Assembly (NCBI RefSeq): GCF_009939295.1
Contig: NZ_WVIC01000035.1
Location: 1 to 46,002, forward strand
Source of the DNA: Petrachloros mirabilis ULC683
GTDB taxonomy: Bacteria; Cyanobacteriota; Cyanobacteriia; Thermosynechococcales; Thermosynechococcaceae
Direction: 5' to 3'
DNA length: 46,002 nucleotides
Positions 14,740-22,332 of the stretch are shown here, one piece after another. Positions within the stretch are counted from its first letter, which is position 1; the number at the start of each line of letters is the position of its first letter. The translations under genes were made by a program, and so were the position numbers. The notes beneath the pieces are model-generated. The model searched no databases. It had not been told where the DNA came from and saw nothing but the letters and a program-made list of their open reading frames with translations.

Positions 14740-14913
14740 GCCCCAGCGGTTGAGCTCTGCCAGATAAACTGCATTCAGACCGTGCAGGGCAAATCGGTCG
14801 GGCTGGGCATCATCGAGTACTAGGCGCTGGTAACAAAAGTCGGTAGGAATGCCACAACTGCGCAGCAGCACTGCCAGCAGGTGAGCTTTGGCAAAATAGA
14901 GTCTTACATATTC
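14740..14913 (-). pseudogene. Transglutaminase-like domain remnant
   Basis: Read from 14913, the frame gives EYVRLYFAKAHLLAVLLRSC, GIPTDFCYQRLVLDD, RFALHGLNAVYLAELNRW. This is the core of bacterial transglutaminase-like proteins: the helix before GIP, a CYQRL strand, and the HGLNAVYL strand with catalytic His. The upstream part of such a gene is absent, because the frame begins exactly at the sigma factor stop. The following RLDARG-type strand is also lost, so this is a decayed fragment. It lies inside an otherwise empty 300-base gap between the sigma factor and the Uma2 gene. Confidence 0.5.
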
Positions 14914-15512
14914 TAAGAACAGCAGGATTTTTCTGACTCCTTAGAACCGCAGCTTGCCGTTGCCTTCGCCTGGTAATCGATCACATTGCCAAGCCGATCT
15001 CGCTGGATCTCACAGCACTGCAACAGCATCGCCTTCAACTTTTGCCGACCTCGCTGCACCCGCGACTTTGCCCCAGAAAGAGAAAGTCCTAGCTGTTCCG
15101 CTGCTGCTTTTTGGGTCATACCCTCCAGTTCTACCAACGCTATAGCTTTTTGGTAGCTGGCGGGTAAAGCCTTAAGCATCGGTTGCAAGCAGGTGGCTAG
15201 CTCCTGGTTCAAGGTGGCGACTGCTTCTTCCTCAGTCCAGGGGCTAGCAGCTAGATCTATCTCCTGCTCGTTAGTGACTTCTCGCTGTTTAGCGGCAGCG
15301 CGGTAATAATCAATCACGGCATGGCGAGCAATCTGAAAGATCCAGGATACTAAGCGATCGCGATCTCTCACCGTGGAGAGGCGGTGATGAATCCGCAGAA
15401 ACACTTCCTGCAAAATGTCATCTGCATCAGTGGGGTTTTGCACCCGTTGTTGAATGAATCGGTACAGGCGATCATGGAAAGCCTGCCAAAGTGCTATCAG
15501 ATCACTGTCCAT
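14913..15512 (-). CDS. sigZ: ECF sigma factor, SigZ-like
   Basis: A 199-residue ECF sigma factor. Region 2 is LIALWQAFHDRLYRFIQQRV with DADDILQEVFLRIH and SWIFQIARHAVIDYYRAA. Region 4 is LPASYQKAIALVELEGMTQK, AAAEQLGLSLSGAKSRVQRG. The tail is cysteine-bearing (LLQCCEIQRDRLGNVIDY, then SCGSKESEKSCCS), a feature of SigZ-type factors. The start is ATG 15512 with GGAGGA seven bases upstream. It lies 23 bases after a cysteine-rich DUF2703 protein on the same strand, so the two form an operon. No anti-sigma gene is seen; the cysteine tails may sense metal or redox state (inference). Confidence 0.9.
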   Translation of the reverse strand: MDSDLIALWQAFHDRLYRFIQQRVQNPTDADDILQEVFLRIHHRLSTVRDRDRLVSWIFQIARHAVIDYYRAAAKQREVTNEQEIDLAASPWTEEEAVATLNQELATCLQPMLKALPASYQKAIALVELEGMTQKAAAEQLGLSLSGAKSRVQRGRQKLKAMLLQCCEIQRDRLGNVIDYQAKATASCGSKESEKSCCS

Positions 15513-15535
15513 CACCGCTCCTCCCGCTGAAAAAA

Positions 15536-16165
15536 CTACCGACACCCACAGGATGCAGGTAGCGCTGTTACCGTGCCGCAGCACTCTGCTTTTTCCTCTG
15601 CTTCACAGCACGTAGCCTCTTCGCTGACATCACAACAACTGAACGCTGGTTCATCTGGTGTGATCGACTGCGAATGCCGACCCGCAAAAAACTGTCTGAG
15701 GTTGTCCGGTACGCCAGCATAGAGTGGAGGAACAACCGGCATTGCTAGTGTATCGGCGTAGATGGAAGCCAAAATTGCATCCACAATCATCCCAACGGGA
15801 GCCTCAGTATACTCTTCTCCACGATAGTGCCAAACTCGACAGGCAACCCCCCCATTGCACCCACACAGATCGCTACAAGTATCGCAGGGACTTTCCACCA
15901 TCTCCAAGGCAATATCCATGCCATTGATACGGATGGTGGGGGAGGCCACAAACTGTTGCTGACGAGCCTGCTCTTCCGATTCAATCAGCTGTTGGGTCAC
16001 AGACACCGTTACACCAGTCGCTTTAAGAATTTCTTGCAAAAGAGCGATTGCCTGGTGAATGTTTGCCAACGAGCCAGCGCAACGGGTACAGGTTTTGAGG
16101 TCTAAAGCCAGCAACTCAATCTCTATCCTTTGAGGTGGTTGAGAATTCATGATACGAAAATTCAT
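15536..16165 (-). CDS. DUF2703 protein with cysteine-rich C-terminus
   Basis: A 209-residue protein. The N-terminal part has a glutaredoxin-like fold signature, LDLKTCTRCAGSLANIHQAI (CTRC motif), followed by SPTIRINGMDIALEMVESPC and CDTCSDLCGCNGGVACRVW. That pattern belongs to DUF2703 proteins. The C-terminal ~45 residues carry three CC pairs and CGCR (FSCCDVSEEATCCEAEEKAE, CCGT), suggesting thiol chemistry or soft-metal/arsenic binding. The start ATG 16165 has GGAG eight bases upstream. That GGAG lies within one arm of a long inverted repeat. It is co-directional with, and 23 bases ahead of, the SigZ-like factor. Confidence 0.85.
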   Translation of the reverse strand: MNFRIMNSQPPQRIEIELLALDLKTCTRCAGSLANIHQAIALLQEILKATGVTVSVTQQLIESEEQARQQQFVASPTIRINGMDIALEMVESPCDTCSDLCGCNGGVACRVWHYRGEEYTEAPVGMIVDAILASIYADTLAMPVVPPLYAGVPDNLRQFFAGRHSQSITPDEPAFSCCDVSEEATCCEAEEKAECCGTVTALPASCGCR

Positions 16166-16168
16166 ACA

Positions 16169-16228
16169 GGGTTCTCCAATCTAAAAACAAAGCACAATCT
16201 TGTGCTCACTTTGAAAGACGGAGAACCC
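16169..16228 (-). promoter_or_regulatory. Structured leader of the DUF2703-sigZ operon
   Basis: Outer 9-base arms GGGTTCTCC (16169-16177) and GGAGAACCC (16220-16228) are exact complements. Inside them lies a second inverted repeat, AGCACAATCTTGTGCT (16191-16206). On the coding (minus) strand, the GGAG ribosome site of the DUF2703 gene is part of the outer stem. The leader RNA could therefore hide the start, or the inner palindrome could be a DNA operator. Confidence 0.45.
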
Positions 16229-16326
16229 GCAAAAAGGACGCAAGACTGGCTCAGATTAATTGTAGGTACGAGATATTGGGCCAAGCTAGCTAACGATTAT
16301 GTTCAGCAGATGCAGATACTATTGAA

Positions 16327-18667: not shown

Positions 18668-19228
18668 ATGACTAGCCTTATCACCCTCCGGGCTGCCACC
18701 CCTGCCGACATCCCGCTGCTGCGCCATTGGGACGAGCAGCCCCACGTCATCTCTGCCAACCCCAACGACCCCTGGAATTGGGAAGCAGATCTTGCTACCT
18801 CTGCCGACTGGCAGGAGCACTGGATTGCTGAACTGGATGGTCGTCCCATTGGTTTTATCGAGATCATCGACCCAGCACGGGAAGAGAGCCACTACTGGGG
18901 CGACGTGCCCACCCATCTTCGCGCCCTCGACATCTGGATCGGTGAGGCGAGTGATTTAGGTCGGGGCTACGGCACCGCCATGATGCAGCTCGCCCTGACC
19001 CACTGTTTTGCCGATCCTGCCGTGACTGCTGTGCTAGTTGACCCGCTGGCCAACAACACCCGCGCCCACCGCTTTTACGAGCGCCAGGGGTTTAAGTTTC
19101 TACAGCACCAACGCTTCGGCGAGGATAACTGCTCAGTATTCCGCCTGAGTCGTGCTGAGTGGCAGCAGGCGATGCCGGGACAGATCCCTACGCCCAGCGC
19201 ATCCCAATCCCCTACTCCCCCAGGCTAA
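18668..19228 (+). CDS. GNAT acetyltransferase, AAC(6')-like
   Basis: A 186-residue GCN5-related N-acetyltransferase. It begins MTSLITLRAATPADIPLLRH and has EHWIAELDGRPIGFIEIIDP. ALDIWIGEASDLGRGYGTAM contains the acetyl-CoA loop (R/Q-x-x-G-x-G/A as LGRGYGT), followed by PLANNTRAHRFYERQGF. The layout matches AAC(6')-type aminoglycoside acetyltransferases and their housekeeping relatives; the substrate is not predictable. ATG 18668 is preferred to an in-frame codon 27 bases upstream. The Pro-rich tail is unusual. The ECF42 gene follows after 64 bases. Confidence 0.88.
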   Translation: MTSLITLRAATPADIPLLRHWDEQPHVISANPNDPWNWEADLATSADWQEHWIAELDGRPIGFIEIIDPAREESHYWGDVPTHLRALDIWIGEASDLGRGYGTAMMQLALTHCFADPAVTAVLVDPLANNTRAHRFYERQGFKFLQHQRFGEDNCSVFRLSRAEWQQAMPGQIPTPSASQSPTPPG

Positions 19229-19292
19229 ATTTCCGCCTAAGTGGCCATCCCCTGGCATCGATACCCATCTACAAAAGGTTGAGAACCCAGTC

Positions 19293-20543
19293 GTGACCCA
19301 AATTATGCCCCCCATCCATGCCACGGTAGAGGCCGTCTACCGCGCCGAGTCGCGCCATGTTTTTGCCACCCTGGTGCGCCTGCTGGGCGATTTTGATCTA
19401 GCAGAAGAAGCGCTGCACGATGCCTTTGCTGCTGCCCTTGAGCAGTGGCCTCGCCAGGGTATGCCTGCCAACCCCAGAACCTGGCTGGTTTCAGTGGGAC
19501 GATTTAAGGCCATCGACGTTATTCGCCGTCGCGCTCGCTTTGATGCTTCTCTGGCGCTTCTGTCTCAGCAGCTTGATGCCAATGAACCGGTGGTTTTGGA
19601 GGAGGTAGAAGATGACCGCCTGCGTCTGATCTTCACCTGCTGCCACCCGGCGCTGTCGCCAACCGCCCAAGTCGCCCTCACCCTGCGGGAAGTCTGCGGC
19701 CTCACCACTGAGGAAATTGCCAGTGCCTTTCTCATTGCTCCGACCACCCTGGCTCAGCGGATTGTGCGAGCCAAGGCCAAAATTCGAGCGGCGAACATTC
19801 CCTATCAAATTCCTTCCAAGCCTGACCTGCCGGAACGATTGGACGCCGTGCTCCAGGTGATCTATCTGGTGTTTAACGAAGGCTATGCTGCCTCCGCTGG
19901 TTCGTCACTGACCCGAGCCGACCTCTGCGAAGAAGCCATCCGGCTGGGGCAACTCCTGCTGGAATTATTGCCCGATCCAGAAGTCATGGGGTTGTTGGCA
20001 CTGATGCTGTTGCAAGAGTCGCGGCGGGCAGCCCGCACTTCTCCCACGGGGGATCTGATCTTGCTGGCAGATCAGGATCGATCGCTATGGAATGTTGAGC
20101 AGATCCAGGCCGGTCAGGCTCTGGTGCAGCAAGCTCTGGCGGCGGGACAGGTTGGGGCCTATACTCTGCAAGCTGCGATCGCAGCCCTCCATGCCACAGC
20201 GCCCAGTCCCTCGGCTACGGACTGGCCTCAAATCGTTGCCTGGTATGACCTACTCAGGCAAGTTAACCCCTCCCCAATTGTTGAACTCAACCGAGCCGTG
20301 GCCGTTGCCATGCAAGATGGTCCCGCTCAGGGTCTACAGCTTATTGAAGATATTCTGGCTCAGGGGCATCTGGTTGACTACCATTTAGCCCATGCTGCCC
20401 GCGCCGATCTCTGTCGGCGACTGGGCAAGGTAGGCACTGCCAGAGACGCCTACCAGCAGGCACTAACCCTAGTGAAGCAAGAACCCGAGCGCCGCTTTTT
20501 GGAAAAACAACTCCGAGAACTGGTCAGTACGGCAGCCAAGTGA
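19293..20543 (+). CDS. ECF42-type sigma factor with TPR-like C-terminal domain (DUF6596)
   Basis: A 416-residue sigma factor. Region 2 is VYRAESRHVFATLVRLLGDF with DLAEEALHDAFAAALEQWPR and NPRTWLVSVGRFKAIDVIRR. Region 4 is LTLREVCGLTTEEIASAFLI, APTTLAQRIVRAKAKIRAA. A ~200-residue helical extension (YLVFNEGYAASAGSSLTRAD; VELNRAVAVAM) is the DUF6596/TPR domain that replaces an anti-sigma factor in the ECF41/42 type groups. ECF42 factors are typically encoded with DGPF/YCII proteins, and one lies 1.4 kb downstream. The start is GTG 19293 (VTQIMPPIHA); ATG 19305 is an alternative. Earlier codons overlap the GNAT gene. Confidence 0.9.
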   Translation: MTQIMPPIHATVEAVYRAESRHVFATLVRLLGDFDLAEEALHDAFAAALEQWPRQGMPANPRTWLVSVGRFKAIDVIRRRARFDASLALLSQQLDANEPVVLEEVEDDRLRLIFTCCHPALSPTAQVALTLREVCGLTTEEIASAFLIAPTTLAQRIVRAKAKIRAANIPYQIPSKPDLPERLDAVLQVIYLVFNEGYAASAGSSLTRADLCEEAIRLGQLLLELLPDPEVMGLLALMLLQESRRAARTSPTGDLILLADQDRSLWNVEQIQAGQALVQQALAAGQVGAYTLQAAIAALHATAPSPSATDWPQIVAWYDLLRQVNPSPIVELNRAVAVAMQDGPAQGLQLIEDILAQGHLVDYHLAHAARADLCRRLGKVGTARDAYQQALTLVKQEPERRFLEKQLRELVSTAAK

Positions 20544-21975: not shown

Positions 21976-22332
21976 ATGAAATACATGTTGCTCATTTACA
22001 GTGACGAAAATGCCTGGACCGAACGGGAGCAGGAAGACTGCTTTACCGAGTCAGTGCAGCTCAGCCAGCAGCTTAAAGCCAGTGGTCACTACCTGGGGGC
22101 GTCGCCCCTCCAGCCGGTATCGACCGCCACCAGTGTGCGGGTGCGCAGCGGCAAACGCCTGGTGACCGATGGCCCCTTTGCCGAAACCCACGAACAGCTC
22201 GGCGGCTACTTTCTCATCGATGCCAGCGATCTGAACGAAGCCATCAACATTGCCGGACGTCTGCCCCCTGTGCATAAAGGCACGGTGGAAATTCGCCCCA
22301 TCCTAGAGCTACCAACCCTGCCCGATCCCTAG
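21976..22332 (+). CDS. DGPF/YCII-related protein
   Basis: A 118-residue YCII-fold protein. It begins MKYMLLIYSDENAWTEREQE and carries the signature DGPFAETHEQLGGYFLIDAS with DLNEAINIAGRLP. That sequence defines the DGPF domain proteins that accompany ECF42 sigma factors. Their biochemical function is not established; the YciI fold suggests a small hydrolase or ligand-binding role. It lies 75 bases after VOC 1 in the same direction. Confidence 0.93.
   Translation: MKYMLLIYSDENAWTEREQEDCFTESVQLSQQLKASGHYLGASPLQPVSTATSVRVRSGKRLVTDGPFAETHEQLGGYFLIDASDLNEAINIAGRLPPVHKGTVEIRPILELPTLPDP

Follow-up and report, generated by a model that had tools for sequence, protein, structure and literature searches.

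The cyanobacterium Petrachloros mirabilis ULC683 carries a gene for a DUF2703 protein directly ahead of a gene for a SigZ-family ECF sigma factor, and both lie behind one conserved promoter through which, judging from sequence comparison, SigZ very probably switches on the adjacent DUF2703 gene. We read the pair as a self-reinforcing detoxification module, in which SigZ would sense As(III) or similar thiol-binding agents and drive both the DUF2703 gene and sigZ itself; we put the probability of this reading at roughly 0.6.

Gene pair, promoter and leader

The window, i.e. the whole stretch of 46,002 nucleotides that was analysed, contains the two genes on the minus strand in the order DUF2703, then sigZ (Table 1). 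Finding both open reading frames there confirmed the adjacency across a 23 bp gap given in a preliminary description of this DNA, and the cysteine clusters it had listed (CTRC, three CC pairs and CGCR in DUF2703; CC, SCG and SCC at the end of SigZ) were all present. It had also seen no anti-sigma gene, and indeed a Pfam scan of the window neighbours gave no anti-sigma domain. The sigma factor passes both the NCBIfam SigZ model NF007215 (222.6 bits; cut-off 212) and TIGR02959 (207.9 bits; cut-off 168.65), the latter match spanning residues 9-184. A solved-structure search with SigZ returned ordinary ECF sigma factors only. The neighbours of the pair are HxlR/SCP2, acyl-CoA dehydrogenase, Uma2 and AI-2E transporter genes, and the window itself is, therefore, without metal context: no ars genes occur in the surroundings of the pair. 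The base composition around the pair is nothing unusual. Elsewhere the genome has a separate acr3 cluster without a SigZ-type promoter, which includes what we take to be a GAPDH gene and an arsJ-like MFS gene.

Table 1. Positions of the features discussed (window coordinates unless a locus is named).
Feature	Position	Strand	Remarks
DUF2703 gene	15536..16165	-	209 aa; Pfam PF10865 93.2 bits (gathering cut-off 23.6)
sigZ (SigZ-family ECF sigma factor)	14913..15512	-	199 aa; ATG 15512, stop at 14913
Intergenic gap DUF2703/sigZ	15513-15535		23 bp
sigZ ribosome-binding site GGGAGGAGC	15517..15525	-	read in the sequence, just ahead of ATG 15512
Predicted SigZ-dependent promoter TTGCGTCC-N15-CGTCT	16216..16243	-	
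-35 element TTGCGTCC(TTTTT)	16236-16243	-	followed by 15-bp spacer
-10 element CGTCT	16216-16220	-	
Outer inverted repeat, 9 bp, GGGTTCTCC/GGAGAACCC	16169-16177, 16220-16228	-	
Inner palindrome AGCACAATCTTGTGCT	16191..16206	-	at start of predicted leader; stem in fold
CTRC motif of DUF2703, Cys26 and Cys29 (invariant CxRC)	16079..16090	-	both invariant in 28/28 aligned DUF2703 proteins
Cys-rich C-terminal tail of DUF2703, CC-x7-CC-x6-CC-...-CGCR	15539..15637	-	
SigZ Cys108, just ahead of sigma-4	15189..15191	-	Cys in 43/45 SigZ proteins
SigZ C-terminal extension with Cys166-Cys167, Cys188, Cys198	14916..15017	-	
Free CC-rich peptide, like the window DUF2703 tail	L016 4697-4873	-	also L125, L126
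acr3, GAPDH gene and arsJ-like MFS gene (names presumed)	L167 3258-6742	+	window genome, contig 22

The promoter, which the preliminary description had missed, is identical in all five of the duf-sig operons first compared. Alignment of their upstream DNA gave TTGCGTCCTTTT, 11 free bases and CGTCT at identical spacing within an otherwise diverged region, so that 12 + 5 promoter bases are unchanged even though the encoded proteins share just about 43-53% identity with those of the window. With at most one mismatch allowed, 23 of 45 SigZ genes have the promoter within 2.5 kb, or 18 out of 40 when the five loci that defined the pattern are set aside; the shuffled control gave 0 loci in 200 of 200 patterns. 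This count preceded the addition of L174-L176. In the later set of 48 SigZ genes, 34 have a site with at most two mismatches within 3 kb, a frequency that shuffled patterns hardly ever approach, and eight loci have none even when three mismatches are allowed. Duplicates or near-duplicates (L156, L157, L121, L134, L001 and L002) had been dropped before counting, as had L122, where no intact sigma ORF was found. The strongest columns over the 34 sites are TGCGTCCTTTT and CGTCT, with each base present in 29-34 of them, a conservation that is partly by construction since the sites were chosen at two mismatches or fewer.

Where SigZ and DUF2703 occur within 2 kb of each other, 27 of 28 loci have a site with at most two mismatches; for DUF2703 loci without SigZ this is 1 out of 27 (the truncated L043, two mismatches). 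The promoter precedes the DUF2703 gene whichever of the two genes comes first, being placed between them in sigZ-first operons, and in L175 (5177-7247) two DUF2703 genes flank sigZ, each with its own promoter at one mismatch. Seven out of 11 genomes have one perfect site each, always at DUF2703. Weaker sites in these 11 genomes (35, against 53 in a reversed-pattern control) show no excess, and a wide SigZ regulon was, therefore, rejected; a further site with two mismatches lies at G000:C32:50835. In IMG/VR the exact pattern occurred only in three near-identical contigs of one phage type, inside an ORF, and these matches were taken as chance, so that a phage link was rejected as well. The B. 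subtilis SigZ promoter has a C at -34 (PMC6713349), with which the window motif agrees in our own alignment if the G of TGCG is placed at -35.

The double-hairpin leader of the preliminary description stood only in part. The outer repeat and the inner palindrome do exist, although an automated repeat search at its settings listed neither, and the downstream arm of the repeat contains the ribosome site. However, the upstream arm lies within the promoter spacer, touching the -10 element, and should therefore not be in the main transcript; the predicted RNA start, near 16208-16211, keeps the inner palindrome only. Folded as one RNA, the whole stretch reaches z -4.3 to -5.6, with 0 out of 200 shuffles as stable, and the part downstream of the predicted start z -1.84. 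With its upstream arm inside the promoter and no stem in the three other cyanobacteria (L020-L022), an RNA-leader switch was rejected as the primary reading. A genuine switch, in which read-through RNA would hide the ribosome site while RNA from the SigZ promoter, without the upstream arm, would be translated, is in our view unlikely: it fits the strong whole-stretch fold (z -5.6), the stem GTTCTCC/GGAGAAC kept in the nearest relative L130 and a different but comparable stem in L023 (z -4.3), but the longer L130 fold reaches only z -1.1, L020-L022 have no outer stem (z +0.5, -0.4 and +0.75), and the arms coincide in part with the -10 element and the ribosome site, whose sequences are under constraint in any case. 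The leader may silence read-through RNA, a possibility with weak support.

Cysteines of SigZ and DUF2703

The CC directly after sigma-4, a trait of the SigZ family, is present in the window protein as Cys166-167; the best SigZ-like ECF factor in 11 other cyanobacterial loci has no CC at this place. In the alignment, Cys166 occurs in 43 and Cys167 in all of the 45 SigZ proteins, which is partly due to the selection of these proteins by the SigZ model since that model includes the CC. Cys188 (42/45) and Cys198 (41/45) sit beyond the end of the TIGR02959 match, and their counts depend on the alignment of short, variable tails. Together with Cys108, five SigZ cysteines are kept in 41-45 of the 45 proteins whatever the target, and the tail cysteines of the sigma factor are thus conserved in relatives, as the preliminary description had required. 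Neither these cysteines nor the promoter change with the gene that SigZ drives, and the simplest sensor is, therefore, SigZ itself, in the manner of CorE of Myxococcus xanthus, a sigma factor that is switched by metal through its Cys-rich tail (PMC8999054, PMC3107203). Alternatively, SigZ may not be a sensor at all, its amount alone setting the output under another regulator (e.g., ArsR) and its cysteines being structural (zinc). ArsR-type genes do occur near several SigZ loci, and duf-sig operons self-amplify, so that small changes in synthesis would matter. However, most ECF factors manage without these five cysteines, which SigZ nonetheless retains, and the scanned neighbourhood of the window contains no ArsR gene; we consider this alternative improbable.

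For DUF2703 the conservation of cysteines held for the core, where Cys26, Cys29, Cys94, Cys97 and Cys109 (i.e., CxRC, CxxC and CR) are invariant in an alignment of 28 proteins, but not for the extended CC tail, which varies among relatives: the CC-CC-CC-CGC layout is common to the DUF2703 proteins of the window, L130, L023 and L174, and other members have N-terminal cysteines or short tails. The published assignment of DUF2703 is thioredoxin-like (PMC3091736). Its predicted structure (pLDDT 80.8) gave thioredoxin-type matches, with thioredoxins in the top rows of Foldseek (best E only 0.013) and, by VIA, Z scores of 8.8 for KaiB and 8.6 for ERp44 over residues 10-141; these matches agree with the published assignment and comprise many thioredoxin-fold proteins, none of which pinpoints a function. 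A solved-structure search with DUF2703 gave one, non-significant match, and the DF family (seleno)protein model NF049942 scored 50.5, under its cut-off of 70.

Among the 27 SigZ-less DUF2703 loci, 16 contain acr3 or arsC (hand count), and in L035 (5935-6891, plus strand) DUF2703 is fused to an ArsC-type low-molecular-weight phosphatase domain. DUF2703-arsO is induced by As(V) in Rhodococcus (PMC6514093). Because of the acr3/arsC loci, the ArsC fusion, a Cys-x-x-Sec variant and the predicted thioredoxin-like fold, the job of DUF2703 is likely thiol chemistry on arsenic.

The Cys-x-x-Sec variant is that of Peptoclostridium (L014 3938-4462, plus strand), whose DUF2703 frame is open only with an in-frame TGA read as Sec and then has CERU at the position of CTRC; in the record the annotated protein is shorter and starts beyond this TGA. 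In L137 (3948-4799, plus strand) DUF2703 carries a C-terminal 4Fe-4S ferredoxin domain.

Occurrence, targets and co-inheritance

Within the phylum of the window only 1 out of 386 genomes contains DUF2703 and only 1 out of 386 contains SigZ above the cut-off, in both cases the window's own, and broad cyanobacterial occurrence was, therefore, rejected. Elsewhere SigZ above the cut-off was found in 4 out of 148 genomes of the class and 12 out of 249 of the phylum of the genome of L031, and in 5 out of 199 genomes of the phylum of that of L023. A GTDB scan with DUF2703 yielded 32 loci; the gene order of the window recurs in three other cyanobacteria and one Acidobacteria MAG, and loci labelled Bacillota or Sumerlaeota have sigZ first. 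The closest pair is that of locus L130, whose genome was drawn from the phylum to which the Acidobacteria MAG belongs (72% identity for SigZ and 65% for DUF2703), and the other cyanobacterial pairs are about 49-53% identical to that of the window. Distances of SigZ and DUF2703 correlate with r 0.85 over 21 pairs, a value reached in 0 of 2000 permutations. The pair is conserved together in relatives, a point for which the preliminary description had asked for a check, and is an old co-inherited module of cyanobacteria, Acidobacteria and Bacillota that is rare in cyanobacteria; its patchy occurrence is likely the result of horizontal transfer. One of the cyanobacterial loci, L020, is a degraded copy with a sigma ORF of 91 aa and a DUF2703 tail that is out of frame.

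DUF2703 lies within 2 kb at 28 of the 48 SigZ loci, a set that includes loci reached through DUF2703. In the 28 loci found through SigZ alone, from which G392, G393, G394 and G389 are excluded as having been reached through DUF2703, hand counting gave 17 DUF2703, three arsM and one arsI gene adjoining sigZ; those with DUF2703 make up 16 of the 21 loci from the Bacillota draws and one of the seven from the other draw (hand count). Pfam confirmed DUF2703 in the small or weak cases scanned. A perfect promoter site precedes arsM in L131 (328 bits) and L139 (362 bits; cut-off 263), and an ArsI/CadI-family enzyme with a CC tail stands behind the promoter in L129 (146 bits; cut-off 116). In L155 the gene next in line is arsM, with a variant site upstream whose spacer is one base longer. 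On Rhodococcus plasmids (L016, L125 and L126) a free CC-rich peptide of 58 residues stands beside sigZ behind its own SigZ-type promoter. A divergent SigZ-like gene of Ideonella (L127) lies within an ars operon, with a site at three mismatches before a permease. The wider setting of SigZ and DUF2703 in arsenic and metal detoxification is supported.

Some targets differ: the first gene in Vibrio (L019) encodes a GST-like protein with a Cys tail, that in Priestia (L017) is an aldo-keto reductase with a site at three mismatches, and in L128 the apparent target is a weak cupin-like protein. These point to thiol/electrophile stress, wider than arsenic. The signal might, then, be such stress in general (oxidants, methylglyoxal, mercury, zinc), with arsenic genes as one of several outputs, a possibility that we take seriously without favouring it: the Vibrio GST, the Priestia reductase and the Rhodococcus CC-rich peptide all stand behind a similar promoter, but DUF2703, arsM and arsI together adjoin sigZ in most of the loci found through SigZ alone.

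The four genomes in which arsM or arsI adjoins sigZ contain no DUF2703. The proposal that the sigma factor is switched through its DUF2703 partner consequently does not hold as a general rule, and DUF2703 as an obligatory partner was rejected in that sense. It might still be a regulator that holds and releases SigZ as a soluble redox or metal anti-sigma factor, in which case the promoter would give negative feedback. This would agree with the tight pairing and co-inheritance of the two proteins, with the one SigZ-DUF2703 fusion (L151) and with the lack of any other anti-sigma candidate in the scanned neighbours; nevertheless, we doubt it, because the same SigZ cysteines and promoter occur beside arsM and arsI in genomes without DUF2703 and because 27 DUF2703 loci have no adjacent SigZ, 16 of them with acr3 or arsC. 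Our preferred reading makes DUF2703 a target of SigZ and a thiol effector that SigZ does not strictly require, although it could still modulate SigZ (compare the in-frame fusion).

That fusion (L151 4779-5498, minus strand) joins SigZ, with regions 2 and 4 and the CC, to the C-terminal half of DUF2703; it has a CC-rich end and all three Pfam domains pass. It may be a real fusion, an in-frame deletion or an assembly error.

Proposed mechanism and relation to known systems

In the detoxification module that we favour, As(III) or another thiol-seeking agent would bind SigZ at Cys108, Cys166-167, Cys188 and Cys198, and the agent-bound SigZ would guide RNA polymerase to a single kind of promoter, TTGCGTCC-N15-CGTCT. 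In the window DUF2703 and, downstream of it, sigZ would both be expressed from such a promoter, so that SigZ would promote its own synthesis (positive feedback). Because the two genes share one promoter, the response would keep amplifying until the signal has been removed by DUF2703. With its CxRC site and its CC-rich tail, DUF2703 would bind thiol-arsenic species or reduce them, either as a scavenger or by serving ArsC-type enzymes as their reductant, and by removing the signal would close the loop. The pairing, the promoter, the choice of targets, the cysteine conservation and the co-inheritance are results of the computed comparisons; that SigZ recognizes the promoter, that the signal is arsenic, that SigZ senses it and what chemistry DUF2703 performs are inferred.

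Extended to the whole SigZ family, this would make its members one-protein metalloid-sensing sigma factors that bind As(III) or Sb(III) on the Cys108/CC/C-C set and, as a rule, turn on just one promoter of their own, ahead of the gene for a thiol-rich detoxifying product (DUF2703, ArsM, ArsI or a free CC-rich peptide). We offer this extension tentatively, as somewhat short of an even chance; if true, it gives B. subtilis sigma-Z its function. Arsenic genes are classically under ArsR repressors, and a metalloid-sensing sigma factor would, if true, represent a different control logic, alternative to ArsR. Such a sigma factor, as a compact sensor made of one protein and equipped with an orthogonal promoter, would also lend itself to biosensors.

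Similar known systems include CorE and CorE2 of Myxococcus xanthus (ECF44, now ECF238), which are ECF sigma factors with a Cys-rich C-terminal extension, no linked anti-sigma factor and metal-detoxification neighbours (PMC3107203, PMC8999054). The window SigZ has CC, Cys188 and Cys197-198 in its C-terminal part and, according to the Pfam scan of its neighbours, has no linked anti-sigma factor either. However, its linker has no CXC and only Cys108 (ATCLQPM) ahead of sigma-4, its tail is short with the CC after sigma-4, and the SigZ targets are DUF2703, arsM and arsI, not copper genes. ECF287 and ECF288 resemble it by their description, with Cys-rich C-terminal extensions and a suggested CorE-like action (PMC8999054). 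DUF2703 of the ars operons (Rhodococcus aetherivorans BCP1) is also thioredoxin-like, with a CxxC-type motif and adjoining arsenic genes (PMC6514093, PMC3091736), but that of the window is predicted to be under a linked sigma factor and has a long CC-rich C-terminal tail.

Both the SigZ family and DUF2703 were already known. In a review B. subtilis sigma-Z is listed without a known function, its role being given as undetermined (PMC7522486), whereas we propose for SigZ a promoter, a set of targets and a connection with arsenic. In the literature searched, no paper links SigZ to arsenic or arsenite, nor does any treat ECF, sigma factor, arsM and arsenite together, and the papers on ECF sigma factors, arsenite and arsenic resistance had, in the parts examined, no bearing on SigZ; a prediction of the SigZ-group promoter may exist in print. 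The sharp promoter, the arsenic-linked targets and the conserved cysteines make the role of sigma-Z open to direct experiment.

The window contains a second ECF sigma factor (19152-20543), with a DUF6596 C-terminal extension, which we take to be of the ECF42 type. A YCII-domain protein is encoded 1.4 kb beyond it (21976-22332). YCII-related proteins are mentioned as a conserved neighbour in a section on sigma factors activated by protein interaction (PMC8999054).
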